NCBI GenBank assembly: GCA_021831565.1
Contig: JAKBMM010000001.1
Location: forward strand, 1 to 64,000
Reading direction: 5' to 3'
DNA: 64,000 nucleotides
DNA from: Planctomycetota bacterium
GTDB lineage: Bacteria > Planctomycetota > Phycisphaerae > WQYP01
The position numbers and the translations under genes are program-made. The number at the start of each line of letters is the position of its first letter. The first letter of the stretch is position 1. Shown here one piece after another: positions 1,251 through 60,478 of the stretch. The notes beneath the pieces were generated by a model, which saw only the letters and a list, made by a program, of their open reading frames with translations, made no database searches and had not been told where the DNA came from.

Positions 1251-1784
1251 TTACGGACTGGAAGTCGCGTACGGCGGATCGCTGTGGCGACTTCGATTTG
1301 TTTTTCGTTTTTTACCCGTGAACGGTTCCACCGCCGCGGCGTCTCTCAACCCCGGCTCCATGCGCCGTCCGCTGATGCAAATCGGAATAATTTTGCGGGT
1401 GGGAATCTGTTCCAGCGGCGTGCGGCGGCCATGGCCGGGGCGCCAGGCATGGCGCAGACGGTTGTACTTCTCGTCGTTGGCCGCACGAACGCGAACTTTC
1501 TCCCCCAGGTCGTCCACCGCCGTGAGTCGGCCTTCCACCAACACGCTGGCATAGTCGTCAAGCTGATCCGTAAACCAGTCCACCTCAAAACACACACGGT
1601 CGTTGGTCCGCAGAATATCGCCCTTGCGACCGCTCAGCGGCACCCGCAGGTAGATGCAGCCGTCCAGCCGGCAGAAGGGCAGGGGAATTACATACGGCGT
1701 GGCGTCTTGGGCAGACATGGCCAGCCGGCCGATCAGGGCGTTGTCCAGGAGTTCTCCGATTTCTTTCTCAGTCATTGGAATCAT
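1251..1784 (-). CDS. Pyridoxamine 5'-phosphate oxidase-family FMN-binding split-barrel protein
   Basis: The 177-residue protein starts MIPMTEKEIGELLDNALIGR and continues with LAMSAQDATPYVIPLPF. This is the N-terminal signature of the NimA/PNPOx-like flavin split-barrel family, which binds FMN (sometimes heme) and reduces small substrates. Later parts of the barrel are also recognisable (GDILRTNDRVCFEVD, SVLVEGRL). I chose ATG 1784 over the upstream GTG at 1835 because GGAG lies about 8 nt before it. The gene is divergent from the AhbD/AhbC-like pair, with only 73 nt between the starts, which suggests shared control. The real substrate is unknown. It could be a flavin reductase serving the radical SAM enzymes or an unrelated detoxifying reductase. 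Confidence 0.75.
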   Translation of the reverse strand: MIPMTEKEIGELLDNALIGRLAMSAQDATPYVIPLPFCRLDGCIYLRVPLSGRKGDILRTNDRVCFEVDWFTDQLDDYASVLVEGRLTAVDDLGEKVRVRAANDEKYNRLRHAWRPGHGRRTPLEQIPTRKIIPICISGRRMEPGLRDAAAVEPFTGKKRKTNRSRHSDPPYATSSP

Positions 1785-1857
1785 GGAATTCTCCGCAAAA
1801 CGGAGTATGTTGAGTCGATTGTCCACTTTAACCACATTTTATGGTAAAATCAAAAAC

Positions 1858-3003
1858 ATGGTAAATAACGGAAACAACCATGCCCCGGCCCGGTCCGCCG
1901 GTGGACTGGATTATGACTCGTCCGACTTCGATCATTCGCCTCTCGTGGTGTTTTATGAAGTGACGCGGGCGTGCAATCTCCTCTGCCGGCACTGTCGGGC
2001 CGAGGCTCAGCCGCGCCGCCATCCGTTGGAATTGGATACCAGGACGGCTCTGGCCCTGCTGGCCGATCTGAAACGCTTTCCCAAACCGCCGTTGCTGGTG
2101 TTCACCGGCGGCGATCCGATCAAGCGCGCCGACGTTTTCGATCTGGTGCGTTACGGCGTGGAGAGCGGTCTGAAAGTGGCCATGACTCCCTCCGCCACGA
2201 AACTGGTTACACCTGCCGTAGTCCGCGGGCTTCAACAAGCCGGTTTGCATCGTCTGGCGGTAAGTCTTGATGGCGCCGACGCCGCCACCCATGACGGTTT
2301 CCGCCGCGTGCCGGGCAGCTATGAGCGCACGCTGGAAATCATGCGGGACGCCATCCAATTCAATCTGCCCTTGCAGATCAACACCACCATCGCCCGCCAT
2401 AATTTCGACCAGATCGACGCCATGGCCCGTCTGCTCGGCCACTATCCCATTATGCTCTGGTCGGTATTTTTCCTGGTTCCCACCGGACGAGCGCTGGCCG
2501 AGAGCCGTATTTCTCCGGAAGAATATGAGATTGCCTTTGAAAAACTTTACCAGCACACGGGGCGGCATGGGTTTGGGGTCAAAACCACTGAAGCGCCGCA
2601 TTACCGCCGGTTCATTCTGGAAAAGCAAAACCATGCCGCACCCGCCGAAAAAGACGGCGGATATGCTCTGCCCGGAATCGTGGGCACCAACGATGGTCGC
2701 GGCGTGATGTTCATCAGCCATATTGGCGAAATTTTTCCCAGCGGTTTTTTGCCGATTCTCTGTGGCCGCTTTCCCCACGATTCTCTCGTCGATGTGTATC
2801 AACACTCGCCCCTGTTCGGCGACCTGCGCAACCCCGGCAAACTCAAAGGTAAATGCGGGTTTTGCCGGTACCGCGGCATCTGCGGCGGCAGCCGGGCGCG
2901 GGCCTACGGCCTTACAGGTGATCCCCTGGCGGCCGAACCCGACTGTATTTATGGTTCTCCCCGAGTCGCGCCCCAACGGAGTCTGCCGCTATGCTTAGCG
3001 TGA
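1858..3003 (+). CDS. Radical SAM/SPASM protein of the AhbD/NirJ type, putative heme synthase
   Basis: The 381-residue protein has the radical SAM CxxxCxxC in TRACNLLCRHCRAEA (about residues 35-50). A glycine-rich FTGGDP follows, where GGEP is usual, and then the conserved SLDGADAATHDGFRRVPGS block. A C-terminal SPASM-type cysteine cluster follows (CGFCRYRGICGGSRARAYGL...PDC). The VFFLVPTGRA and FISHIGEIFPSGFLP segments match AhbD-like proteins, which decarboxylate Fe-coproporphyrin to heme b. The related TIGR04053-type subfamily is another possibility. ATG 1858 is chosen because the upstream extension of the frame reads through the divergent promoter region and shows no family similarity. The gene overlaps the next by 13 nt and is probably co-translated with it. 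The exact substrate is inferred. Confidence 0.7.
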   Translation: MVNNGNNHAPARSAGGLDYDSSDFDHSPLVVFYEVTRACNLLCRHCRAEAQPRRHPLELDTRTALALLADLKRFPKPPLLVFTGGDPIKRADVFDLVRYGVESGLKVAMTPSATKLVTPAVVRGLQQAGLHRLAVSLDGADAATHDGFRRVPGSYERTLEIMRDAIQFNLPLQINTTIARHNFDQIDAMARLLGHYPIMLWSVFFLVPTGRALAESRISPEEYEIAFEKLYQHTGRHGFGVKTTEAPHYRRFILEKQNHAAPAEKDGGYALPGIVGTNDGRGVMFISHIGEIFPSGFLPILCGRFPHDSLVDVYQHSPLFGDLRNPGKLKGKCGFCRYRGICGGSRARAYGLTGDPLAAEPDCIYGSPRVAPQRSLPLCLA

Positions 3004-4208
3004 GCAATCTTCTGTGCGATCACCAGGCGGGCAATGAAAGCCTGCGTTATGGCCACCGTACCCGGCGAAGCGAATCGCCCGGCCCGCCGCGTCCCGTGGT
3101 GGTCTGGGCCGTAACCAAGGCCTGCAATTTGCACTGCGTGCATTGTTACGCCTCCGCCGACGCGAACCCGGCCCCCGGCGAGTTGGCTTATGACGAGGGC
3201 CGGCGGCTGCTCGACGACCTTGCCGGCTTCGCCGTACCCGCGGTGCTTTTTAGCGGGGGCGAGCCGTTGGTCCGCCCCGCTACCCTCCGGTTCATCGCCC
3301 ATGCCCGGAGCCTGGGGCTGGCCTGCACGCTCTCCACCAACGGCCTGTTGATTGACGAGGCCATGGCCGACAGGCTCGCCGAGGTTGGATTGAAATATGT
3401 AGGAATCAGCATTGACGGCACGGCGGATCGCCATGACAAACTCCGCGGTCGGCAAGGCGCCTATGCCGGTGTGCTGGCGGCGATCGACCGCTGCCGGCGG
3501 CGCGGCATCAAGGTGGGCTTGCGCTTTACCGTGCACGGGCTGAATGTCGCCGACTTGGACGCCATTTTCGACCTCTGCATCGCCCGCCGGGTGCAGCGGC
3601 TCTGCGTGTATCACCTGGCCTACGCCGGCCGCGGGGGAAATATGCAAAAAGTGGATCTGACTGCCGCGCAGATTCGCGCCGTAGTGGATCGAATTTTCCA
3701 GAAAAGCATCCAGCTCCACGCCGCCGGGGAGCCGCTGGAGGTCCTTACCGTGGACAATCACGCCGATGCGGCGTATCTCCTGCTTCAACTTGAGAAATCC
3801 GATCCCGTCCGCTGCCGGCGGGTATGGGAGAAACTCGAGGGAACCGGCGGCAATCGCTCCGGATGCAACATTGCTTCCATCGATCCCGTAGGCAATGTGC
3901 ATTACGATCAGTTTAGCTGGCATTACAACTGCGGCAACGTGCGGGAAAAGTCCTTCAGTGCCATCTGGTCCGAAGCGAGCGATCCAAGACTGGCCCTGCT
4001 TCGCGATCGCCGGGCACATCTGCCCCGGCGCTGCCAGGACTGCCGTTTTGTTTCCGTTTGCAACGGCAATCTGCGAACACGCGCCGAGGCGGCTACCGGC
4101 GATTGGCTCGGATTCGATCCCGGCTGCTACCTGACCGATCAAGAAATCCGTCCCCCTGGCGACCAACAGGTCGCGGCGGTGGCCCTTCCGGTGGCCGCGG
4201 GCGCATAA
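2991..4208 (+). CDS. ahbC: AhbC-like radical SAM/SPASM protein (12,18-didecarboxysiroheme deacetylase type)
   Basis: The protein has 405 residues. It starts MLSVSNLLCDHQ...SLRYGHR, an N-terminus typical of AhbC. CxxxCxxC lies in VTKACNLHCVHCYASA, followed by LFSGGEPLVRP, YVGISIDGT and a C-terminal cysteine set (CQDCRFVSVCNGNLRTRAE...GFDPGC). AhbC removes the acetyl side chains of 12,18-didecarboxysiroheme to give Fe-coproporphyrin in the siroheme-dependent heme pathway, upstream of AhbD. Its start lies inside the end of the AhbD-like gene, so the two enzymes of consecutive steps are coupled. The decarboxylase partners AhbA/AhbB are not in this window. The alternative is a NirJ-type heme d1 enzyme, but no nir genes are near. 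Confidence 0.75.
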   Translation: MLSVSNLLCDHQAGNESLRYGHRTRRSESPGPPRPVVVWAVTKACNLHCVHCYASADANPAPGELAYDEGRRLLDDLAGFAVPAVLFSGGEPLVRPATLRFIAHARSLGLACTLSTNGLLIDEAMADRLAEVGLKYVGISIDGTADRHDKLRGRQGAYAGVLAAIDRCRRRGIKVGLRFTVHGLNVADLDAIFDLCIARRVQRLCVYHLAYAGRGGNMQKVDLTAAQIRAVVDRIFQKSIQLHAAGEPLEVLTVDNHADAAYLLLQLEKSDPVRCRRVWEKLEGTGGNRSGCNIASIDPVGNVHYDQFSWHYNCGNVREKSFSAIWSEASDPRLALLRDRRAHLPRRCQDCRFVSVCNGNLRTRAEAATGDWLGFDPGCYLTDQEIRPPGDQQVAAVALPVAAGA

Positions 4209-12535: not shown

Positions 12536-13249
12536 ATGAGCGAATCATCCGTAAAAACCCCCAAGACGATCTGGCATCAGCCGCCGCCGGTTCATTTTGA
12601 TTCTGCATGGCCACGGTGGACCAAATACCTGTTTTGCCTGATTTTGTTGGTGATTGCTTTCCCCTTTGACAAGACCGTCGGCCAATGGGCGCTGGGCAAC
12701 CCAATTGTATTCAAATCCGACATCAATCTCGAAATGATCATGCTGATGCAGTGGGGCCAGTGGACTTGCTCGATCCTGGTTATTGTTGCTGTGGCTTTAC
12801 TCGATAAACAGGGCAAGGCCCGGGCGATCGCTCTGGGGGTGGGATGCCTGACCGCCGTGGCGCTGTGTTACCTGCTCAAGGGACTTTGCGGCCGGGCGCG
12901 ACCGTGGCTGCTGCACGCGGGGGTCTACGGCTTCTTCGGACCGGCGTATGGTTTTCTGCACGGCGCAGCGTACCAATCGTTTCCCAGCGCCCATACCAGC
13001 GGCGCGTTCGCTCTGGCGGCCGGTCTGGCCTGGTTTTACCCCAATGGTCGGGCGCTGTTCTATGGATTGGCGCTGGATACAGCCTTTCAGCGCGTGATTC
13101 GGCACGCTCACTATCCTTCCGACGTGGTGGCCGGCGCTACTTTAGCGGTCACCGCGGTTCGCAGCGCGTTGTTGTGGAAATGGCCGGGGCGCCTGATCGC
13201 CGCGTTGCCACCGGCCTGGCAGGATTGGATATTTACCGCAAACCAATGA
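12536..13249 (+). CDS. PAP2-family membrane phosphatase
   Basis: The 237-residue protein has about five hydrophobic segments and the three phosphatase motifs: KGLCGRARP (KxxxxxxRP), SFPSAHTSGAF (PSxH) and QRVIRHAHYPSDVVAG (RxxxxxHxxSD). PAP2 enzymes remove phosphate from lipid phosphates such as undecaprenyl pyrophosphate or phosphatidate at the membrane. Two nucleotides separate it from the upstream URO-D-fold gene. Its stop overlaps an ATG (13246), and the true start of the following cbiX-like gene is 18 nt downstream, so the three genes form one operon. Confidence 0.92.
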   Translation: MSESSVKTPKTIWHQPPPVHFDSAWPRWTKYLFCLILLVIAFPFDKTVGQWALGNPIVFKSDINLEMIMLMQWGQWTCSILVIVAVALLDKQGKARAIALGVGCLTAVALCYLLKGLCGRARPWLLHAGVYGFFGPAYGFLHGAAYQSFPSAHTSGAFALAAGLAWFYPNGRALFYGLALDTAFQRVIRHAHYPSDVVAGATLAVTAVRSALLWKWPGRLIAALPPAWQDWIFTANQ

Positions 13250-13266
13250 GGCGCAGGAGCACCGCG

Positions 13267-13746
13267 ATGATAACGCCAAAGAACTCCCCGGAGCGGGTGG
13301 GGATTATTCTGGTCGATCATGGCAGCCGGCTCCCCGCCGCCAATGATATGCTCCATGATGTGGCCGCGATTTTCAAAAAAATATCCGGTTGCGCCATCGT
13401 GGAGCCGGCCCACATGGAACTTGCCCCACCCAGTATCATGCAAGCCTTCGACGCGTGCGTTCGCCAAAGCGTTACACGGGTGGTGGTGCATCCGTATTTC
13501 CTGGCGCCAGGCCGGCACAGCACCACGGATATTCCCCGCCTGGTGCGGGAAGCGGCGGCGGCTCATCCCGGCGTGGCATTTCATGTCACCCCGCCGCTGG
13601 GACGAGAGCGAAAAATCGTCGAGGTGATTCTCCAGCGTGTTCAGGAGTGCGCCGCGAATAACTACGACTGTACACATTGCACATGCAATTCCTGCGACCT
13701 GGTCGGCCGGGCGACCCCCGCGCCCATTCCGAAACACAACGCCTAA
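13267..13746 (+). CDS. CbiX/SirB-like sirohydrochlorin chelatase with a cysteine-rich tail
   Basis: The 159-residue single-domain protein has the CbiX pattern. IILVDHGSRLPAANDML carries the first metal-binding histidine, EPAHMELAPPSIMQAF the next block, and VVVHPYFLAPGRH follows. CbiX inserts cobalt, and SirB inserts iron, into sirohydrochlorin. The C-terminal part contains CAANNYDCTHCTCNSC, a dense cysteine cluster. Some CbiX proteins have an extra MxCxxC motif with a 4Fe-4S cluster, so a metal or cluster role is plausible here. The start is ATG 13267 with AGGAG 7-8 nt before it, rather than ATG 13246. The iron-chelatase version would feed the siroheme used by the AhbC/AhbD-like pair. Confidence 0.82.
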   Translation: MITPKNSPERVGIILVDHGSRLPAANDMLHDVAAIFKKISGCAIVEPAHMELAPPSIMQAFDACVRQSVTRVVVHPYFLAPGRHSTTDIPRLVREAAAAHPGVAFHVTPPLGRERKIVEVILQRVQECAANNYDCTHCTCNSCDLVGRATPAPIPKHNA

Positions 13747-30678: not shown

Positions 30679-33600
30679 CTATTTAACGAGCATGTCGATG
30701 TCCACGCGGTGCTCGCGGCGGTCATTGACCAGTGGAATCACGGAATCTTCCCGGACAACGCCATCGACCTTTACTTGCCCGACGCGTTTTCCTCCACCAG
30801 TGAAAAAGATGTGGTAGAAGGTGTCGAAATAGCGGTAATGGACCCGAAAGGGGCCCCAGGATTGAGGCACGGCCGGCTGAAACCAGAGTCGCGCGGCGTT
30901 CCGCCGCATTCCAATAAAAGTTTCCACGAGCAGGCGATACATCCACCCTGCGGAACCGGTGTACCAGGTCCAACCGCCACGGCCGGCATGCGGCGGCACG
31001 GCATATACATCGGCGGCGACTACGTACGGTTCCACACGATATACGCCAATATCGGCGGCGTTGGCGCCGTGCCGAAGGGGATTGATTAAACAGAAAAGCT
31101 CCCATGCTTTTTCCACCTCGCCCGCTTGGGCGAACGCCATGACCACCCATACTGCCGCGTGCGTGTATTGGCCGCCATTTTCCCGCACCCCCGGCACATA
31201 ACCGGCGATGTAGCCGGGATCGTTCGGTGGATGATCAAAGGGCGGATCGAGAAGCTGAATCAGGCGGTCTTGGTAATGCACCAGGCGCCGTTCCACCGAC
31301 GCCAGCGCCGTTTTTTGACGATCGGGATCTCCGGTTTGGCTGAGCACGGACCAGCTTTGCGGCAGGCTGTCGATTTGGCACTGTTCGCTTTGCGCCGAAC
31401 CCAGGGGCGCGCCATCATCAAAAAAGGCTCGTTTGTACCATTGCCCATCCCATCCATGGATTTCCACGGCCTGTTCCAGTTCGGCGGCGACACGTCGGCA
31501 AAGCTCAACGGTTGGAGCATCCTGGCGAAGCTCGGCCAATGGCCCGAATCGTTGGAGCACAAAACGCAGAAAGAAAGCCAGCCATACGCTTTGGCCCTTG
31601 CCCTGGCTGCCCAGACGATTCATGCCATCGTTCCAATCGCCGCTGCCGATCAACGGCAGACCCAGGGCGCCGAAGCTCAGCCCATATTTCAAGGCGCGCA
31701 CGCAATGCTCATAAAGCGAGGCGCTCTGGGCGCTGCGTTGGGGAAGATCGTAGTAAGATTCTTCCTGCGGATTCAGGGGACGTCCCTGGAGAAACGGCAG
31801 GGATTCCTCCAGCACGCCCGTGTCGTTGGTAAGTTGGACATAATGGGAAACTGCCAGCGGCAGCCAAAGGAAATCATCGCGGCAACGGCTGCGAACGCCG
31901 CGTCCCTGGGGGGGATGCCACCAATGTTGCACATCGCCTTCAACAAATTGCCGACTTGCCGCCCGCAGCAAGTGGTTTCGCAGGATGGACGGATCGATCA
32001 GGGCGATGGCCATGGCGTCCTGCAATTGATCGCGGAAACCGTAGGCGCCGCCCGACTGGTAAAATCCGCTGCGCGCCCAGATGCGGGAAGATAACGTCTG
32101 ATAGGGTAACCAGCCGTTGGCCAGAGCATTGGCCGCGGCATCGGGCGTTTCGAGATAAATCGTTCCCAACAGGCGATTCCAGAAATTCCATACCTCTTCC
32201 AAAGCCCGGCGCGCCGCACCCGGCGTGCGATAGCGTTCGATCAACGCCCGGGCCTGATTGCGACCAGCCGTGGCGCCGAGAATAAAAACCACCTCCTGTT
32301 GAGCGCCGGGGGAGAGTTCCCAGGAGCATTGCATGGCGGCACAGGGATCCCGCACGGGTCCCAACTCGCCGGAGAGTCGCAGCCGGCCCATCGCCGCCGG
32401 CGAATCCAGTGAACCGTTACGGCCGAGAAATTCGGTACGATCGCCAGTGACCGAGCGGCGGCTTTCGCTGATCTCGGCGAATGCCACCATGGAGTCGAAC
32501 TCGGCGTTCCAGGTGTTGCGTGCCAGAATGGCGCCGGTTTTTTCGTCCATTTCGGTCACGACGTGCATCACGTTTTGCCCGCGACGCTCCCCCAGCACCC
32601 ATTCCCAGTATCCCGTCACCGAGATGCGGCGCGGGTGATCGGACTGGTTGGTAAGCTTGAGAACACAGAATTTCACCGGCGCATCAATGGCGACGTATAC
32701 CCATAACTCCGATCGTATCTGCTGTTCGGTGCGTTCAAACACGCTGTAACCGAAGCCGTGGCGAACCAGGCAGGGCATTTTCCCGGCGGCCGGCAAGGGC
32801 GTCGGCGACCAGAAATAGCCGGTTTGGTCATCGCGAATATAAATGGCCTCGCCGGAAGCGTCGCTCACGGCGTCGTTGCACCACGGCGTGAGGCGATATT
32901 CGTGGGCATTGACGGCCCACGTATACATCCCACCGCTTTCGCTGACCACGGTGCCAAAATGCTCATTGGCGATGACGTTGCACCAGGGCGCCGGGGCCAG
33001 GCGTTCGGCGGTTACGCTCATCACGTATTCACGAGCGTCTCCCGTCAGCCCACCAAGGGAATTAAAGAACCGCAAATCCGCCCGTGCTGTTTGTACACGC
33101 GGCGGTTTTTCGTCGCGGGGCTGGGCTACCGGTATCAGGTGGGGAACTATATTTTCAGCGGCGTGATCGGCGGTGGCCAGTTGCCCGGCCAGCGAACCGG
33201 CTTCATCGGAAAGCACGATGGCGGCGGCGGAGAGCAGCAACGCCCGATCTTCCTCGGAAAGCTGATCCGGACGGCGAAGGAATATTCCGCCCGGTCGATC
33301 CAGCAGTTTCGCCTCCGGGCTGGCGGCAATCAGCGCCGCCAACTGATCTTGCAGCGACTGCCGATAAGTCGAGGTATCCTCCGGCCAGAGCACCAGGTCT
33401 ACAGGGACACCCTTGAGTCGCCAGTAGGCGTGGGCTTGAATGATCTGTCGGACCAGGGACACAGACGCCGCATCGGAGAGTCGCAGGAGCATGATCGGCA
33501 GATCACCGGAAATGCCGAATCCCCACAGGCCGGACTGGCCTCGCCGGTTTTGCAGGATCATCCGGGCCGGCCCGCGATGTCGCGCTCCGGGATAGAATAG

Positions 33601-36600
33601 CGGTCCGGCCAGCCGGCCGAAGAGTTGGGCTTCGGCATCGCTGACATTGAGTTGGCGCAGAAGCACTTGCTGGTGCGACCAGGCCAGATCCAGCATCCGA
33701 TCGGTAAATCGTCGATCGTGATACTGTTCGATAAGCCCCAGCGCCTCCTGCCGTGATGGAGCCATTCCCAGAAGCACGTCGACCACCACGGTCTGCTCCG
33801 GTTCGATCACGAAATCGCGGCGTATCGCCACGATCGGATCCAGCACTGCTCCGAGCGAGTTGGAAAGAGGCCCATGGCGATCCATGGCGAGTGGCCGTCC
33901 TGGACTACGACCGCGCCCAAGGAAGATTCCCCGGTCGGTTTCCCAGGAGCACGCCGCTTGCGAAGAGCCGTGCACCGCTACAAGGTGCAGCAGCCAGGGG
34001 GGCGATTCTTCTTTCGACCGCCCGCGCCGCCAAACCAGGAGAGCCGGGTAATCCGCTACGGATTCGGTTTGGACAAAAAGATTGCTGAACGCTGGATGGG
34101 TCGCATCGGCGGCGGGGGGGGCCAGCACCACTTCGGCATAAGAAGTAATCTCGAGGCGACGACTGGAGCGGGAACGGTTCGTGAGCAGGACGCGGCGCAG
34201 TTCGATATCTTTTTCCGGCGATACGACCACCTGGGTGAGCGTATCGATCACGCCATCCCGGCGGCGAAATTCGGCCTTGCCCTCGGAAAACGTCGCCGCA
34301 TACGTATGGCCGCGGCGCCGCACCGGCTGGTGCGTGTTGGACCAGTAACGCCCCGCCTCCACATCACGGATATAGCAGAATAATCCCCAGCAATCCCGCG
34401 TGAAATCTGACCGCCAACGCGTGAGAGCCAAGCCGTCGCAGACGGAGCGCGATCCGCCCGCCGCCGTGAGCAGCAGATGGTATCGGCCGTTGGAAAGCAG
34501 GTGCGCCGCCGGTGCGACGGTTTGCGGCGTTTCAAATGTGCGCCAGCCGAGCTGTTCTTGCGCTATCGGCCGGAGGGCTTGCATGACTTCCATCGCGTGC
34601 GGAAACACCGGCCGCAGAAGAGGCGCCTTTTCCTGCAAAAGCAGTTCGCCGGAACGCAACAGCGGATCGGAATTAAAACGCCGCTGCATCGGTTGATCCA
34701 GAAGGCAAGCCGCCAATGTCAGCAGAATCATCCCCTGGTGATGCGACATGAACGATCGAATGGTAGCCGACCGGCCGATCTCGGATACGCGCTGCGGTGT
34801 GTAATCGACGGCTTCGTAGAAACCATACTCTCCCAACCGGCCGTCCCGCACCAACCGCCGGAGATTCGCACAAGCGTCCGCCGGTTTGATCAGCAAGGCC
34901 ATGACGGCGGCGTAAGGGGCGATGACCACGTCGTCCGCAAGCCTCCGCTTGAATCCCAGACCGGGCACGCCGAATGATTGGTATTGGTAGTTCAACTGCG
35001 CGTCCGTGGCGTTATAACCGGATTCTGATACGCCCCAGGGAATACCGCGTTGGCGGCCATATTCAATATTTCTTTCGACCGCGGCCCGGCAGGAGCGTTC
35101 CAGCAGCGTGTCGGGGAAGGAGGGCATCACCAGCAGCGGCATCAGGTATTCAAACAACGAGCCGCCCCAGGAAAGCAGTGCGAGCCGCCCGGCCGTACCG
35201 GTTAATTGCCGTCCGAGTGCAAACCAATGGTCTTGAGGCACTTGCCCGAGAACAATCGCCACGTAACTGCCGAACCTGGCCTCCGAGGCCAGAAGGTCGT
35301 AGAACCCCGTGTCCCGGCGATTCTCGGTGACGTTGAATCCTATGGCGAATAATTTACGGTTGCGATCATATAGAAAAGTAAAATCCATGTCCGCAAATTC
35401 CCGGCAGGTCCGGGCCAGATCTTCACAGGTTCGCAGGCGCCTCTGCATTCGTTCGCCGGTCTGTTCCAGCGCGGAACGCAGCTCCACCAGCCATGTTCGA
35501 GTGGAATCGTCCAGCCCATCACCATCGCCGGTTCCGCCACGGGCGCCCGGAAATCGGTCCAGAACGTCGATCGCCCGCCGCACGGTTTCCACTCCCTTTT
35601 CCAGAGAGGGGTTGGCGTTGAGCGCGGCAAGGTGGGCGATCAGTTCGAGCCACAGCCGGGCCACCTCCGGCGTTGCGCCCGGCGGGACATCCGGTGGCGG
35701 CCAGCGGGCAATCCAGGGGGCCAGAATAGTTATTTCTTCAAGAAAATCTTCATGCTGATGAGCAAGAGATTCCAACCACAAGCGTAGCGATCCGGAGAAC
35801 GCCGCGGCGTGCGCCGCAAAAAATTTCCGCAGATGATCATCGGCCTGCCGCAGGCGCACGGCGCAATCGCCAAGCGTGTCGAAACGATGGGCATAAATTT
35901 CCCCCAGCGTCCGGGCCATATCTTCGATTGCTTCCCGCAGTCGGCGATCCAGTTCCTGGCCGACGGGGCGGGACATTTCATCCGCCAGCACCAGCAGCGT
36001 ATCCAAGAACCCTTCATTCAGACACGGGTTAAGCAGCGGCTGATGCGGCATCTCGCGCAGAGCGCTTCGGAGCACCAGCAAATGCCCCGCCAGGTTTCCA
36101 CTGTCGACCATGGACACGTACAGAGGATTAATCGCCCGCAGCGAATGAGTGTCGTACCAATTGAAAAAATGACCGCGGTGGCGCGGCAATTTTCCCATCA
36201 CCTCAAGAGTGGCCGACGTTCGCTGGAGCAACCGGCCCGTGGAAATCCATCCAAAATCAAGGGACGAGAGATTTGCCAGCAAAGCCAAGCCGATATTTGT
36301 GGGCGAGGTGCGGTGCGCCGTCGCCGCTCGCGGATATTCCTGGTAGTTATCCGGCGGCAGAAAATTTTCGGAGGCCGTCATAAACTGCTCGAAAAATTCT
36401 CCTGTTCGGCGGGCGATCATGCGAAGAAAATGGCGTTGCGTGGGGTCGACGACCATGGCCGCTTCCGGCAGGGGTCGGCTGACGAACCAGGCCACGAGCG
36501 GAGAAAAAAACCATGCCGCCGCCAGCAATTCACCCGGTATCCGCATGGCTGGCTTGCCCAGCATGGTCGCAACACCGGTCAGCGCGCCAAGTACCGGCGC

Positions 36601-39495
36601 CACCCACATGGCGCCGAGAAAGCTCCTGAGAGTCGTGGACGCGGTGCGCTGCACCGCACTGCTGGTATGCCATTCCAGCAACCGTCGGTGGGTTATGCAC
36701 ATGCGTCCCAGCGCCCGTCCGATGGCGTCCACGCCGACGAAAGCCTCATAGGGAAGAAAGATCAGCGACAATGCCCCCTGGGCGATGTGCCGCCCCAGAT
36801 CCACCAATCCCCAACGTAGATGCGGGCCTAGCGGGGCCTCCGTATTTTTGCGCGTCAAGGCAACCAGAGATGCCAGCACCGGCGTGGCGGTGAGGACACC
36901 GGCAACGGCGAGCAGCCACACACCGCCGTGCGGCAGATAGATAAGGGCCAGCAGCAACAGCAGCAGCAGGGATGGCGGCGTCAGGCTGCGGCGCAGGTTG
37001 TCAAATATCTTCCAGCGCGAAAGGGCGGAGAGTGGATTGCCCACCCAGCGCCACGCGAAATCCGGCGCACGGGGCAAAAGCCAGGGAAATATCTGCCAGT
37101 CACCGCGAATCCAGCGGTGCCGCCGGGTCATCTCCACTCCGTAATGCCACGGGAAATCCTCCAAAAAAAGAATGTCGCTGACGAGGCCTGAACGCACGTG
37201 GCATCCCTCGAGTAAATCATGGCTCAAAATATGATTGTCTGGAAACCGGTGGTGTAGAACCCGGTAAAACGTGTCGACGTGCAGAATACCTTTGCCAAAA
37301 AAAGATCCTTCTCCGAAAAGGTCCTGGTACACATCCGAAACGGCCCGGGTGTAAGGATCCAGACCGGCGTCGCTCGCGAAGAGTCGCGCCAGCCACGACC
37401 GCCGCGCCGCTGGCAGGCCCACGCCCACCCGCGGCTGGAGAATGCCATAACCCCGTGTTACCAGGCCCGTACGGGGATCCAATTCCGGGTGATTAAGGGG
37501 GTGCGCCATCGCGCCGATCAGTTCGGCGGCGCTGCCGCGTGGCAGTTCCGTATCGGTGTCCAGCGTGATAACGTATTGCACGCCCGCCAGCGGTGCGGGG
37601 TCGCCGGTCACGGCCAGGAACTTATCGCCCGCCTCGCTTCGCAGATATTCGATCAGATCGGCCATTTTTCCGCGCTTGCGCTCATACCCCATCCAGAGCT
37701 TTTCGTTGGGATTCCACCGCCGCGGCCGATGGAACAGGTAAAAGGGGCCGCCTTCGTCGCGCCCGTAGCGGCGATTGAGCGTTTCGACACCCTCCATAGC
37801 CTGCCGCAGCAACGATTCGTCATCCGGCATGACCTGCGCGGCGGCATCGGTAAAATCAGTCAGCAGGCCATAAAGAATATTGGAATCCCGATTGGCGAGA
37901 TATTTAATCTCCAGCGACATCAGCAGCGCGCCAACTCCGGCCGGGTTTTCGAGTATCGTGGGAATCAGCACGAGAGTGCGGCATTCATCCGGCACGCCGT
38001 TGGAAAAATCCATCCGCGGCAGCGATGCCGGCCGGATTGCCAGCGTGCAAAGGTAGTTCACCAGCGCCATCGCCAGGCTCGAGGCACAAAGCAACGCCGC
38101 CAAAGCCGTACTCCACCACAACCAGGCGGGTTGTGGGGGCGGAACGGTTCCTAGCAGCAGGGCGCTCACGGCTGACAAACTCAAAAGAAAAATACTTCCC
38201 AGATAAAACGGCAAAGCGAAATGGCGGATAGCCCGTTGCGCGTCAAGCCGCACCCTAGGCCGCACGCCAACCGCCTCCTCCAGTTCCCTTAGGCCCTGGT
38301 CCACGAGGTAAAATCCGACGTGTGACCGGCAATCTTCCGAGCCATGCCGGCGGGCAGCTTGCGCCGCCAATTCCACCGCTTGCGCCGCCACTTCCAATTC
38401 CTGACGCCCGGACAAGCGGGCCAGTGATTCGATCACATGTCGATAGTGATCGCGGCTGCGGAAATCCATGCGGCTGTAAGCGCGGGCGGGATCCGCGGCG
38501 AGTTTTTTATCCGGCAGACTATGCGTTTCGACGAATTGGCCCCAATCCAGTGAATCGATGAAACGGAGGCTGCCGATGCAGTTGCCGATGGAAACGTGAT
38601 CCGCCGCCTGTTTCTGGCTCTCTTTCTGCAGCATACGATCGAGATTCTCGGAGGAGCGGACAAGCATCTGTTGGAGCCAATCGAGTACCAGGGCCAGTGA
38701 GGCGCTCTGGCCCTGCAGCCGCCGCACCAGTTCTGTGACAAACGCCGGGGAGAATATCGGTTTCGCCCGCACGATCTCGGCCAGCGTGACGATGACTTCG
38801 TTTGGACTTTTTTCTGCCGCAACCAGCAGGCGATCAGCCCAATCATTCGCTAGATTCCGATCGCGCCGCCCCGTCGCAATGCGCGCCGCCACCCGCCTGA
38901 GATTTTCCACCAGCGCCGCGCGCAGCATGATCGGCACCGCCCAAAGTTCGCCCAGCGCCAGCACCGTCTGGCGCTGGTAGGCAGCCAAAAATCGTCCGAG
39001 CGCCTCGGCGTCGACGCGGCCGTCCAGATGGCTGATCAGAGCCAACGCGATTCCATACACCCGCGGATAACCGCGCCAGGCGCCAGCCGCCAGACGCGGC
39101 AACTGGGCGCTGTATCCCCGGGGCAGATGTCGCCGGATCAGGCGGATTTGCTCTTCGATCAGATAAAAATTGTCCAGCAGCCATTCCGCGGCGGGCGCGA
39201 CGGTCTGTTCGGCGGCGATAGTCTTATTAATAATATTATATGTATAGTTTAGTACTATTTCATTCTTCGTCAGGCGCGGCCGCAGCCGGTCCGGGGCATG
39301 TCCCAGAATGGGCTTGTGTTCATCGGCCAGCTCCTGCGCCAGACGTTCCAGTTGATCGACGCTGAGAAGTTCGGCACGAAGCGGTTCTTCGCCGGGCGCA
39401 AAATCCGAGCCACGCCTCCGCACCCGACCCCATCGTGTAACGACAGGCAACACCGGCATATTCGACTCCATCGCGCCCCGGGCGGCCATCGGCAA
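30679..39495 (-). CDS. ndvB: Cyclic beta-1,2-glucan synthase (NdvB/Cgs type, GT84 + GH94)
   Basis: At 2938 residues this matches the usual NdvB/Cgs length (about 2800). The N-terminal 400 residues are helical and cytosolic. Membrane segments start at about residue 418. The glycosyltransferase core carries VITLDTDTELPRGSAAEL (about 641), SHDLLEGCHVRSG (about 756) and RRHRWIRGDWQIFPWLL (about 788), followed by a second membrane cluster (about 840-1030). The C-terminal half has repeated beta-sandwich and (alpha/alpha)6 parts of the GH94 phosphorylase type, with the presumed catalytic Asp in SGDWNDGMNRLG (about 2618). It would make beta-1,2-glucan from UDP-glucose and cyclise it for export. A G8 tract sits at 34114-34121. 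The two leading ATGs (MPMAARGAMESNM) leave the exact start uncertain. Confidence 0.92.
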   Translation of the reverse strand: MPMAARGAMESNMPVLPVVTRWGRVRRRGSDFAPGEEPLRAELLSVDQLERLAQELADEHKPILGHAPDRLRPRLTKNEIVLNYTYNIINKTIAAEQTVAPAAEWLLDNFYLIEEQIRLIRRHLPRGYSAQLPRLAAGAWRGYPRVYGIALALISHLDGRVDAEALGRFLAAYQRQTVLALGELWAVPIMLRAALVENLRRVAARIATGRRDRNLANDWADRLLVAAEKSPNEVIVTLAEIVRAKPIFSPAFVTELVRRLQGQSASLALVLDWLQQMLVRSSENLDRMLQKESQKQAADHVSIGNCIGSLRFIDSLDWGQFVETHSLPDKKLAADPARAYSRMDFRSRDHYRHVIESLARLSGRQELEVAAQAVELAAQAARRHGSEDCRSHVGFYLVDQGLRELEEAVGVRPRVRLDAQRAIRHFALPFYLGSIFLLSLSAVSALLLGTVPPPQPAWLWWSTALAALLCASSLAMALVNYLCTLAIRPASLPRMDFSNGVPDECRTLVLIPTILENPAGVGALLMSLEIKYLANRDSNILYGLLTDFTDAAAQVMPDDESLLRQAMEGVETLNRRYGRDEGGPFYLFHRPRRWNPNEKLWMGYERKRGKMADLIEYLRSEAGDKFLAVTGDPAPLAGVQYVITLDTDTELPRGSAAELIGAMAHPLNHPELDPRTGLVTRGYGILQPRVGVGLPAARRSWLARLFASDAGLDPYTRAVSDVYQDLFGEGSFFGKGILHVDTFYRVLHHRFPDNHILSHDLLEGCHVRSGLVSDILFLEDFPWHYGVEMTRRHRWIRGDWQIFPWLLPRAPDFAWRWVGNPLSALSRWKIFDNLRRSLTPPSLLLLLLLALIYLPHGGVWLLAVAGVLTATPVLASLVALTRKNTEAPLGPHLRWGLVDLGRHIAQGALSLIFLPYEAFVGVDAIGRALGRMCITHRRLLEWHTSSAVQRTASTTLRSFLGAMWVAPVLGALTGVATMLGKPAMRIPGELLAAAWFFSPLVAWFVSRPLPEAAMVVDPTQRHFLRMIARRTGEFFEQFMTASENFLPPDNYQEYPRAATAHRTSPTNIGLALLANLSSLDFGWISTGRLLQRTSATLEVMGKLPRHRGHFFNWYDTHSLRAINPLYVSMVDSGNLAGHLLVLRSALREMPHQPLLNPCLNEGFLDTLLVLADEMSRPVGQELDRRLREAIEDMARTLGEIYAHRFDTLGDCAVRLRQADDHLRKFFAAHAAAFSGSLRLWLESLAHQHEDFLEEITILAPWIARWPPPDVPPGATPEVARLWLELIAHLAALNANPSLEKGVETVRRAIDVLDRFPGARGGTGDGDGLDDSTRTWLVELRSALEQTGERMQRRLRTCEDLARTCREFADMDFTFLYDRNRKLFAIGFNVTENRRDTGFYDLLASEARFGSYVAIVLGQVPQDHWFALGRQLTGTAGRLALLSWGGSLFEYLMPLLVMPSFPDTLLERSCRAAVERNIEYGRQRGIPWGVSESGYNATDAQLNYQYQSFGVPGLGFKRRLADDVVIAPYAAVMALLIKPADACANLRRLVRDGRLGEYGFYEAVDYTPQRVSEIGRSATIRSFMSHHQGMILLTLAACLLDQPMQRRFNSDPLLRSGELLLQEKAPLLRPVFPHAMEVMQALRPIAQEQLGWRTFETPQTVAPAAHLLSNGRYHLLLTAAGGSRSVCDGLALTRWRSDFTRDCWGLFCYIRDVEAGRYWSNTHQPVRRRGHTYAATFSEGKAEFRRRDGVIDTLTQVVVSPEKDIELRRVLLTNRSRSSRRLEITSYAEVVLAPPAADATHPAFSNLFVQTESVADYPALLVWRRGRSKEESPPWLLHLVAVHGSSQAACSWETDRGIFLGRGRSPGRPLAMDRHGPLSNSLGAVLDPIVAIRRDFVIEPEQTVVVDVLLGMAPSRQEALGLIEQYHDRRFTDRMLDLAWSHQQVLLRQLNVSDAEAQLFGRLAGPLFYPGARHRGPARMILQNRRGQSGLWGFGISGDLPIMLLRLSDAASVSLVRQIIQAHAYWRLKGVPVDLVLWPEDTSTYRQSLQDQLAALIAASPEAKLLDRPGGIFLRRPDQLSEEDRALLLSAAAIVLSDEAGSLAGQLATADHAAENIVPHLIPVAQPRDEKPPRVQTARADLRFFNSLGGLTGDAREYVMSVTAERLAPAPWCNVIANEHFGTVVSESGGMYTWAVNAHEYRLTPWCNDAVSDASGEAIYIRDDQTGYFWSPTPLPAAGKMPCLVRHGFGYSVFERTEQQIRSELWVYVAIDAPVKFCVLKLTNQSDHPRRISVTGYWEWVLGERRGQNVMHVVTEMDEKTGAILARNTWNAEFDSMVAFAEISESRRSVTGDRTEFLGRNGSLDSPAAMGRLRLSGELGPVRDPCAAMQCSWELSPGAQQEVVFILGATAGRNQARALIERYRTPGAARRALEEVWNFWNRLLGTIYLETPDAAANALANGWLPYQTLSSRIWARSGFYQSGGAYGFRDQLQDAMAIALIDPSILRNHLLRAASRQFVEGDVQHWWHPPQGRGVRSRCRDDFLWLPLAVSHYVQLTNDTGVLEESLPFLQGRPLNPQEESYYDLPQRSAQSASLYEHCVRALKYGLSFGALGLPLIGSGDWNDGMNRLGSQGKGQSVWLAFFLRFVLQRFGPLAELRQDAPTVELCRRVAAELEQAVEIHGWDGQWYKRAFFDDGAPLGSAQSEQCQIDSLPQSWSVLSQTGDPDRQKTALASVERRLVHYQDRLIQLLDPPFDHPPNDPGYIAGYVPGVRENGGQYTHAAVWVVMAFAQAGEVEKAWELFCLINPLRHGANAADIGVYRVEPYVVAADVYAVPPHAGRGGWTWYTGSAGWMYRLLVETFIGMRRNAARLWFQPAVPQSWGPFRVHYRYFDTFYHIFFTGGGKRVGQVKVDGVVREDSVIPLVNDRREHRVDIDMLVK

Positions 39496-58954: not shown

Positions 58955-59143
58955 CTTCCGTTGGTTTTACGATTGTTCCAAACCGCTTGGCAAACGGAAA
59001 AAGCCTGGCAATTTTTTGGGGAATCGACCGGTAAATCCCGATAGCCACCGGGTCGGCACGCCATCTTCGTGGCGACAATTATGTCGCGGGTCCACACCGG
59101 CGCCCTCCCGAAAATATTGCCACGTCTGTGTGGAAAAGGTTGT

Positions 59144-60478
59144 ATGGTCATCGCGAGTTATTCCCCCCTTGCCGCCAGGCCCGGCGCGCGGCCAAACCGG
59201 TATAAACCCGGCTTCGATCTCAACGCCGTCATAGAAGGTCAAGCGCGGCTTTCCAACGAGCAGTTTCTCGAGTTGTACCACCAGGCCGAGTTAACCGATC
59301 TGGGACGCTGGGCCTTTGCGGTAAGTCAGCGTCTTCATCCGGAAGATTACCGTACCTATGTGATCGACCGGAACATTAACTATACCAATATTTGCACCGC
59401 CCGCTGCACCTTTTGCGCCTTCAAGCGCAATGACCCGCAAGCCTCCGATGCTTACACCCTCTCGCCGGAACAAATTCACGAAAAAATTTCCCAATTGGTT
59501 CAGATCGGCGGCACGCAGATTCTGATGCAGGGAGGCATGAACCCGGCCCTGCCCATCGAATATTATGAGGGACTTCTGCGCGGCATTCGCGAGAAATTTC
59601 CCACCGTTCACATTCACGCCTTCAGTCCCCCGGAGTTTGTGGAATTTGCGCGTTTCTTCCATCTGCCGGTGGCCGAAGTGCTCCGGCGGTTTAAAGACAG
59701 CGGTCTGGCCACGGTACCCGGCGGTGGAGGAGAAATCTTTTCCGACCGCGTACGCAAGCGGATCGGGCCGGGCAAATGCAGCGGTCAAGAGTGGTTGGAT
59801 GTGATGAGCCAGGCCCATAAACTGGGGCTTTACACCAGTGCGACCATGCTCATCGGTCATATCGAAACCATTGAGGACCGGCTGGATCATTTAAGCCGCC
59901 TGCGCCAGCGCCAGGATTGGGCTTTGGCCAACGCCCCGGCCCATTACACGGCGTTTATTCACTGGACCTACCAACCGGATCACACTCCGCTGGATCGCAA
60001 AAGGAAATGGAATCCGGATTCGGGCAAGCCTTACGAATTCGACAATGGTCGAACGGTGCGACTGGCCGACGCCGATGAATATCTGCGAATGCTGGCCCTT
60101 GCCCGGCTGTACCTGGACAATATTTGCAACATGCAGAGCAGTTGGGTCACCATGGGCCCCAAGATCGGCCAGTTGGCGCTGTTTTTCGGCGCCAACGACA
60201 TGGGCAGCGTGATGATGGAGGAAAATGTCGTCAGCAGCGCGGGAACCACCTACAAGCTTTCGCAAGACATGATTTGCCGGCTGATCCGCGACAGCGGCTG
60301 GACACCGGCTCAACGCAACCAGTATTACGAGGTACTCCAGCGCCACGATGGACCGGATTCGCCCGATCGAAGACCTGTCCCGACCGGCGAGTTCCCCCGG
60401 CGCCAACACCGGATCACGCCGGAGGCGGCGGCGGCGTATAAAAACATTGAATTGAAAATATCTATCAAAAAGAAATAA
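59144..60478 (+). CDS. mqnC: Cyclic dehypoxanthine futalosine synthase MqnC
   Basis: The 444-residue radical SAM protein has YVIDRNINYTNICTARCTFC ending in AFKR (CxxxCxxC, about residues 84-91). LMQGGMNPALPIEYYEGLL and VPGGGGEIFSDRVRKRIGPG follow, matching MqnC rather than MqnE. It cyclises dehypoxanthine futalosine in the futalosine menaquinone pathway. ATG 59144 (AAGG upstream) is preferred over a longer start at 59069. mqnA, mqnB, mqnD and mqnE are not in the window. It is convergent with the histidine kinase gene, with 39 nt between the stops. Confidence 0.93.
   Translation: MVIASYSPLAARPGARPNRYKPGFDLNAVIEGQARLSNEQFLELYHQAELTDLGRWAFAVSQRLHPEDYRTYVIDRNINYTNICTARCTFCAFKRNDPQASDAYTLSPEQIHEKISQLVQIGGTQILMQGGMNPALPIEYYEGLLRGIREKFPTVHIHAFSPPEFVEFARFFHLPVAEVLRRFKDSGLATVPGGGGEIFSDRVRKRIGPGKCSGQEWLDVMSQAHKLGLYTSATMLIGHIETIEDRLDHLSRLRQRQDWALANAPAHYTAFIHWTYQPDHTPLDRKRKWNPDSGKPYEFDNGRTVRLADADEYLRMLALARLYLDNICNMQSSWVTMGPKIGQLALFFGANDMGSVMMEENVVSSAGTTYKLSQDMICRLIRDSGWTPAQRNQYYEVLQRHDGPDSPDRRPVPTGEFPRRQHRITPEAAAAYKNIELKISIKKK

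Follow-up and report, generated by a model that had tools for sequence, protein, structure and literature searches.

A TIGR04053 and AhbC-type gene pair in a planctomycete as the probable end of a siroheme-dependent heme pathway that keeps HemQ

Introduction

The synthesis of heme from siroheme is already in print, and the question raised by the stretch of DNA considered here is whether a planctomycete makes heme in this way and, if so, which enzymes complete it. The window (the whole stretch analysed: 64,000 nucleotides (nt) of Planctomycetota bacterium (WQYP01), GenBank assembly GCA_021831565.1, contig JAKBMM010000001.1, positions 1 to 64,000) carries at 1251 to 4208 two consecutive genes for radical S-adenosylmethionine (SAM) proteins and a divergent neighbour. 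We call the protein of 1858 to 3003 P1 and that of 2991 to 4208 P2. A preliminary description took the two for an AhbC/AhbD pair of the siroheme-dependent route in an organism that might lack the textbook one. Our analysis suggests that the locus probably provides the two final steps of siroheme-dependent heme synthesis, with P1 as an AhbD that forms only auxiliary cluster II (AuxII) and works alongside HemQ (ChdC).

Several elements of this question have been described before. AhbD is known as the last enzyme of some coproporphyrin routes (PMC7242693), and ChdC is reported from most Planctomycetota genomes analysed (PMC10991733, citing Dailey 2015). Fix et al. 2023 (PMC10452713) distinguish two groups of AhbD: proteins with a full SPASM domain in methanogens and sulfate reducers, and proteins of non-methanogenic archaea in which a conserved Glu and two Ser stand in for three of the cysteines and AuxII alone is kept. 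Our literature search returned no paper joining Phycisphaerae, heme biosynthesis and siroheme; PMC10991733 was the sole paper found that covers, in its accessible text, ahbC, ahbD and planctomycetes together.

Results

Both genes lie on the forward strand, the P1 gene at 1858 to 3003 (start ATG at 1858) and the P2 gene at 2991 to 4208, and they share 13 nt (2991 to 3003), just as the preliminary description had noted. Both products are radical-SAM proteins, as it had also proposed (PF04055: 63.3 bits for P1 and 100.6 bits for P2; the SPASM domain of P2 scores 24.2 bits), with the order corrected: the AhbD-like gene is the upstream one and the AhbC-like gene the downstream one. P1 has the motif TGGDP and P2 the motif SGGEP. 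Among the 24 fetched loci with a one-piece match over the cut-off of TIGR04053, the family of P1 (L001 to L024, the window being L014), such a gene is paired with an AhbC-type gene in 23; the two overlap by 7 or 13 nt in 19 of these 23 and are spaced by 19 to 70 nt in the other four, an arrangement that recurs across loci beyond chance. Three genomes that exceed the cut-off with joined pieces only are left out here: the pair is present in G009, the AhbC-type gene of G041 lies about 2 kb away, and in G048 there is no such gene.

P1 belongs to TIGR04053 (427.4 bits against a cut-off of 395), an NCBIfam family without an assigned role. The AhbD equivalog model TIGR04545 is second best and leaves P1 outside (302.4 bits against a cut-off of 500); P1 is not a canonical AhbD. 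In a 43-row tree the TIGR04053 proteins form a single clade of 20 rows (support 100/99), and they share one side of the tree with the AhbD-like and NirJ2 rows, AhbC/NirJ and P2 being on the other (100/100). The earlier AhbD-like assignment is modified by the model scores. The six AhbD-like rows of this tree are not one group, and none is over the AhbD cut-off; the G046 row joins TIGR04053 at 92/85, and NirJ2 and NirJ are long branches, the joins of which, as the program warned, are possibly false.

The cysteines of P1 point to a particular kind of AhbD. P1 carries the radical-SAM motif CX3CX2C (C39/C43/C46) and the AuxII motif CX2CX5CX20C (C333, C336, C342, C363), both given for AhbD in PMC3942049 and PMC10452713, and it fits the broad AhbD pattern (CX3CX2C with a C-terminal CX2CX5CX20-38C). 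At the four positions of auxiliary cluster I (AuxI) it has E245, T277, S295 and S345; it lacks the eight cysteines of a full-SPASM AhbD and has the Glu and two Ser (E245, S295, S345) of the AuxII-only group at three AuxI positions. With its AuxI cysteines replaced, P1 is predicted to form only AuxII.

These substitutions are features of the family. We compared six AhbD-like planctomycete rows with 84 TIGR04053 rows: P1, four plasmid-borne members and 79 of 80 named loci (the top 80 of a larger number, retrieved by two peptide patterns and taken with up to 6 kb of flank; L131 was excluded because its match is not one open frame). GGD is found in all 84 TIGR04053 rows, whereas all six AhbD-like rows have GGE; the GGDP to which the preliminary description had drawn attention is therefore real, but it is a family signature and not an oddity. 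At the positions equated with C223, C256, C274 and C324 of Methanosarcina barkeri AhbD (numbers that we assigned from the motif text in the paper), where the AhbD-like rows have Cys, TIGR04053 has Glu in 84 of 84, Thr, Val, Ile, Ala or Leu, then Ser in 56, Ala in 26 and Thr in two, and finally Ser in all 84. The uniformity of the Glu column is in part a product of selection, since KTTEA was in one of the two search patterns; the GGD and CGGS columns lie outside the patterns. The predicted structure of P1 has a SPASM-type radical-SAM fold (mean predicted local distance difference test score 86.6), and among solved structures its fold comes closest to SkfB and SuiB, both peptide maturases, followed by PqqE; no AhbD chain is among the 50 structures listed, and the fold match is thus silent on substrate. 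One TIGR04053-like protein (288 bits; L045, G057 contig C19, 9501 to 10625) is without CX3CX2C but has the AuxII motif, and is possibly a non-radical paralogue.

P2 is best matched by the NCBIfam models NirJ1 TIGR04054 (443.8 bits), AhbC TIGR04546 (416.0), TIGR04347 (404.8) and NirJ (363.4), in every case under the cut-off (650 for both NirJ1 and AhbC). In the tree, where the preliminary description had wanted it placed, P2 falls among 15 AhbC/NirJ rows (100/100), and there within a six-row subclade made up of its own GTDB family (100/99); the larger clade includes the same-class rows G028 and G042, which exceed the AhbC cut-off (708 and 694 bits). We regard P2 as AhbC-type by clade and not as a scored equivalog member, because it is placed with over-cut-off AhbC rows while its own score falls short. 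It resembles AhbC and NirJ1 in its full-length match, common clade and SPASM cysteines, and differs from them in its scores and in having a separate subclade with relatives outside its phylum. In the Armatimonadota-labelled loci L134, L138, L152 and L154, a TIGR04053 gene is followed by a P2-type gene 70-72% identical to P2; the non-P2-type AhbC genes compared from the window's own class are only 41-48% identical to it. The pair has probably been transferred between phyla, judging from these identities.

The window's genome (2.81 Mb, 95% complete) has no match to ferrochelatase PF00762, and true HemE was not found in it, the matches to PF01208 being weak (at most 61.5 bits) and the one match to TIGR01464 scoring 22.9 bits against a cut-off of 302.95; a protoporphyrin or coproporphyrin pathway, sought by HemE and ferrochelatase, was accordingly not recognized. 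An AhbA/AhbB-type decarboxylase, the mark of the siroheme-dependent pathway, is present on contig C60 as a divergent AhbA-AhbB fusion of 383 amino acids (PF17805, 58.2 bits), which matches the NirD-like 4ch7 over both halves (E=1e-9) and the AhbB 4czd. Contig C67 encodes a HemQ/ChdC of 278 amino acids (PF06778, 182 bits), the best alignment of which is to Corynebacterium diphtheriae ChdC; it keeps the Tyr mutated in 7q4g (Y135A) and the EH histidine, which we take to be the proximal His. Contig C21 carries a cluster of a CysG-N/Met8-type gene and hemA, both over their cut-offs, and a CcsB/HemX-like gene under its own (91 against 188 bits). There is one HemN-like match, of 21.6% identity, on contig C58 (HemN and HemF were not searched as families).

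The preliminary description is partly borne out by these searches. The siroheme-route pair does stand in a genome that shows no sign of the textbook route; of the genes that it had proposed to look for, ahbA and ahbB were found as a fusion and hemH gave no ferrochelatase match, and the combination that it considered fatal, a complete classical pathway with the pair in a peptide-modifying clade, was not encountered. HemQ/ChdC, which it had also proposed to look for, is present, and two enzymes may therefore serve the last step.

Across 61 genomes of the window's class, counts for which are inflated by kinship and the tests on which are not independent, AhbC-like genes occur in 46, and ferrochelatase over the cut-off in none of these 46 (an 18.9-bit match in G059, under the cut-off, was counted as absent). 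Gene sets were sorted by hand from profile matches, which were typed as TIGR04053, AhbD-like or AhbC-like by the higher of the TIGR04053 and TIGR04545 scores and by its level, and 18 radical-SAM proteins were checked against NCBIfam. Five genomes (G034, G038, G048, G050, G055) have a ferrochelatase over the cut-off, and the same five have HemE, four over the cut-off and G055 at 295 of 303 bits. By last-step candidate, the 46 AhbC genomes (among which the AhbC of G023 is a cut gene) comprise 25 with TIGR04053 only, 18 with an AhbD-like gene only, one with both (G008) and two with neither (G049 and G051, 83 and 73% complete). A strong-scoring kind of AhbAB is found in 20 genomes, 19 of which have the AhbD-like gene, and a weak-scoring fused kind in 27, with TIGR04053 in 25 and HemQ in 25. 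A HemQ-family gene is present in 25 of the 28 TIGR04053 genomes (24 without G048, counted by a 237-amino-acid PF06778 protein with a weak PDB match, E 2e-4); it is missing in G001, G016 and G027, and occurs without TIGR04053 in G004, G021, G035 and G050 (the completeness of G004, G016, G021 and G027 is 53-76%). Beyond the GTDB family of the window, the link between TIGR04053 and HemQ rests on three of three genomes. A last-step candidate without AhbC is seen in G016 (a TIGR04053 fragment at a contig end), in G048 (TIGR04053 with HemE, ferrochelatase and HemY) and in G038 (AhbD-like with HemE, ferrochelatase and a HemY-like gene). The genome with both candidates, G008, carries two full sets (L040, L041, L098, L099), namely classical AhbAB with AhbC and an AhbD-like gene, and fused AhbAB with P2-type and TIGR04053 genes. 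Seven genomes (G029, G030, G032, G039, G043, G047, G056; 93-100% complete) have no AhbC, AhbAB, ferrochelatase or HemE by the models used, and are candidates for heme auxotrophy or another route, as far as these profiles indicate.

In the 80 named loci, several of which come from the same genomes as the 61 and many of which are short contigs, so that absence of a neighbour is weak evidence, TIGR04053 lies near an AhbC-type gene in 39 (34 of P2 type and five of another type; L165, a 26% match, was dropped) and near HemY in nine, all nine over the TIGR00562 cut-off and including the chromosome of strain TBK1r (L174). The HemY-linked tree rows L139, L147 and L174 form a clade (100/100). The family is found mostly in Planctomycetota, and also in Armatimonadota-, Lentisphaerae- and Nitrospinae-labelled loci, Thermus, Deinococcus and haloarchaea; no match was found in subtilis. 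In Deinococcus ficus it stands by CbiX/SirB and cobA genes, and in Haloferax larsenii and Halobaculum with genes for halocyanin, a cbb3-type oxidase subunit I and a multicopper oxidase, the last two of which we read as norB- and nirK-type. The H. larsenii cluster is laid out like that of HVO_2144, the ahbD of H. volcanii (PMC5746218). A record of 2,894 bases labelled as a Campylobacter jejuni plasmid (NZ_CP029056.1), of which a TIGR04053 gene makes up more than one third, is possibly a contaminating contig.

Discussion

Gene presence, family placement, residue pattern and co-occurrence argue for the reading of the locus as the end of siroheme-dependent heme synthesis, its two final steps, and from them we infer the following reactions. 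Siroheme would be completed by the CysG-N/Met8-type enzyme, by CbiX or by both, and the divergent AhbA-AhbB fusion would remove two carboxyl groups; P2, as a proposed 12,18-didecarboxysiroheme deacetylase, would then take off the two acetate chains that are left, yielding iron-coproporphyrin III (coproheme). Two interchangeable enzymes would convert this product to heme b: HemQ/ChdC with peroxide where oxygen is present, and P1, as an oxygen-independent coproheme decarboxylase, where it is absent. In a chemistry carried over from AhbD (PMC11306076), the radical-SAM cluster of P1 would be reduced, SAM cleaved and a hydrogen taken from a propionate beta carbon of coproheme; loss of CO2 would leave a vinyl group, twice in succession, and spare electrons would exit via AuxII to some acceptor. 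P1 would do this work without AuxI.

We propose the use of P1 at low oxygen, with HemQ acting in oxygen, because of the pattern reported for H. volcanii (PMC5746218). In that archaeon a strain lacking ahbD grew much more slowly under anaerobic conditions, and one lacking pitA (ChdC) grew more slowly under aerobic ones. Both mutants were rescued when heme was supplied, the ahbD mutant fully in dimethyl sulfoxide (DMSO) respiration, while in denitrifying growth its rescue was partial and occurred only with DMSO. The two systems would be alike in leading from siroheme to coproheme and then to a HemQ-type or an AhbD-type last step; they differ in that HemQ here is a plain 278-amino-acid protein and in that the division by oxygen would be shared only by analogy. 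P1 resembles AhbD (TIGR04545; M. barkeri, Desulfovibrio) in both motifs, in tree side and in its AhbC neighbour, and differs from it in score, in GGD for GGE, in the replaced AuxI cysteines and in forming a separate clade. With the AuxII-only AhbDs (Halorubrum, Aeropyrum, PMC10452713; HVO_2144) it shares the Glu and Ser/Ser at AuxI positions, and it differs from them in being bacterial and in being linked to AhbC or HemY, the comparison being with the published pattern and not with sequences.

A number of observations weigh against this reading. We found no activity of any TIGR04053 protein in print and no paper naming the family, and none of the AuxII-only AhbDs had been biochemically studied according to the 2023 paper (PMC10452713). 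In M. barkeri AhbD a perturbed AuxI stalls the reaction at the monovinyl stage and loss of AuxII is harmless (PMC10452713); because AuxII is there removable and AuxI not, the AuxII-only enzymes must differ from it. P2 misses the AhbC equivalog cut-off, HemQ scores 122.4 bits against 235 for NCBIfam HemQ_actino, and HemQ makes P1 dispensable for aerobic heme. The place of HVO_2144 in TIGR04053 is suggested by synteny with H. larsenii, the Thermus TIGR04053 gene by nirS is called NirJ, for heme d (PMC5748679, PMC7694296), and the second set of G008 could make another product. Finally, a motif scan (CXXCH, GHPEVY-like, GRQPW and others) of 599,535 bases, or 21% of the genome, recognised no heme protein and gave just three doubtful CXXCH frames.

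The most serious competitor, which we nevertheless consider unlikely, is that P2 and HemQ make all the heme and that P1 has another job, the repair or modification of another tetrapyrrole or of a peptide. In its favour, TIGR04053 occurs mostly where HemQ, here with its catalytic residues, already exists, G008 carries two sets, and the nearest solved folds of P1 are peptide maturases; but the fold is uninformative on substrate, as no AhbD structure was listed, and no precursor peptide was noticed, although no systematic search for one was made. P1 has, moreover, the published AuxII-only AhbD residues and a place on the AhbD side of the tree, and its gene overlaps the AhbC gene in most pairs or elsewhere adjoins HemY, which favours the decarboxylase.

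A NirJ-like role of the pair, in supplying a cd1 nitrite reductase with heme d1, is a good deal less probable. The best model of P2 is NirJ1, labelled putative heme d1, and in Thermus thermophilus JL-18 the gene following that for nitrite reductase is a TIGR04053 member (482.8 bits) and, by gene order, the NirJ (nirSJM) of the Thermus literature; the Thermus protein is a relative of P1 whose name implies heme d1. The planctomycete genome, however, has no match to cytochrome cd1/NirF PF02239 at 95% completeness, and for this genome we rejected the reading on that ground. Among the 61 genomes PF02239 is matched in six, with scores of at most 31 bits for a single piece and 40 bits for joined pieces; the tree separates TIGR04053 from NirJ, and 48 of the 80 named loci have it close to HemY or AhbC; and the control Thermus composti matches TIGR04053 (at a level not given relative to the cut-off) but neither PF02239 nor PF17805. 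In a separate NirJ context, on the Paenibacillus polymyxa plasmid pSb31l (L197, 5001 to 8208), a NirJ1-NirJ2-AsnC cluster resembles AhbC-AhbD-AhbAB.

Two further readings are very improbable. A peptide-modifying SPASM system has the SPASM-like fold and a haloarchaeal TIGR04347 protein, a P2 relative, by a candidate ribosomally synthesized and post-translationally modified peptide on its side, but heme-type models come top (the best peptide maturase, mycofactocin, scores 110 bits for P1 and 123 for P2, among the 25 best of 45 and 72 models, respectively), the tree puts P2 with AhbC/NirJ, AhbAB and HemQ are in the genome, and with nothing beyond the common fold in its favour we dropped peptide maturation. 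A relic or redundant transfer in a cell that takes up heme from outside would accord with the heme-protein sample and with a pair that may have moved between phyla, but the frames are intact and kept through the GTDB family, and AhbAB, HemQ, hemA and the met8-type gene are retained.

A wider proposal, to which we give an even chance, is that TIGR04053 is a pathway-independent, oxygen-free coproheme decarboxylase with one auxiliary cluster. It would be the counterpart of HemQ for anaerobic conditions in several bacterial phyla and would act on coproheme of two origins, siroheme where its gene lies beside AhbC and the coproporphyrin route where it lies beside HemY. Were this true, the Thermus NirJ would be renamed; its label is called into question by the present reading. 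What we therefore call new is a bacterial, putatively AuxII-only AhbD within a siroheme route in which HemQ is retained as well, because no earlier report of a TIGR04053 function or of a Phycisphaerae siroheme-to-heme route was found in the literature searched. It offers a testable function for TIGR04053, points to a planctomycete route to heme with siroheme as its starting point and HemQ as a possible end, and provides bacterial material for the question, posed in PMC10452713, of how AhbDs without AuxI do both decarboxylations; G008 would show whether a second gene set is redundant or makes another product.

The neighbours of the pair are accessory to this proposal. A PNPOx-like split-barrel gene (Pyridox_ox_2 PF12900, 62.3 bits) lies on the reverse strand at 1251 to 1784, with its start ATG at 1784, and is separated from the P1 gene by a divergent intergenic region of 73 nt, read directly from the sequence (1785 to 1857), in agreement with the preliminary description; its closest solved relatives by sequence are 2hq9, 3u0i, 2hti and 1rfe. 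Within the flanks examined, 19 of the 24 loci have such a gene next to TIGR04053 in divergent orientation; it was not found in the flanks of L007, L009, L012, L015 and L024, though in the genome of L007 it is about 1.6 kb from TIGR04053. It is nearby in only 24 of the 80 named loci, and for this reason we dropped it as a required partner and kept it out of the mechanism. A Flavin_Reduct split-barrel gene adjoins the AhbAB fusion in the window's genome (L037, 7974 to 8498) and stands beside AhbAB in four of nine further fused-AhbAB loci (L079 to L082 of L077 to L085) and, at 37% identity, in L057. Both halves of the proposed pathway thus have a neighbour of split-barrel flavoprotein type, Flavin_Reduct by AhbAB and PF12900 next to the two radical-SAM genes; a part for the split-barrel protein in the pathway would be conjectural.

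The preliminary description had also named a CbiX chelatase as a possible supplier of siroheme. The open reading frame (ORF) at 12844 to 13746 (forward strand) has the domain (PF01903, 99.6 bits, residues 159-263) and may be an optional sirohydrochlorin chelatase, scoring 82.2 bits with the CfbA nickelochelatase model, under its cut-off of 120; it is not the only candidate, and as sole siroheme chelatase it is unneeded, given the CysG-N gene in the genome. Elsewhere in the window, an ORF of 2,938 amino acids at 30679 to 39495, with GH94 domains and a glucoamylase-like domain, is reminiscent of cyclic glucan synthases, and the gene at 59069 to 60478 is over the cut-off for MqnC (455.7 bits), indicating menaquinone synthesis by the futalosine route.

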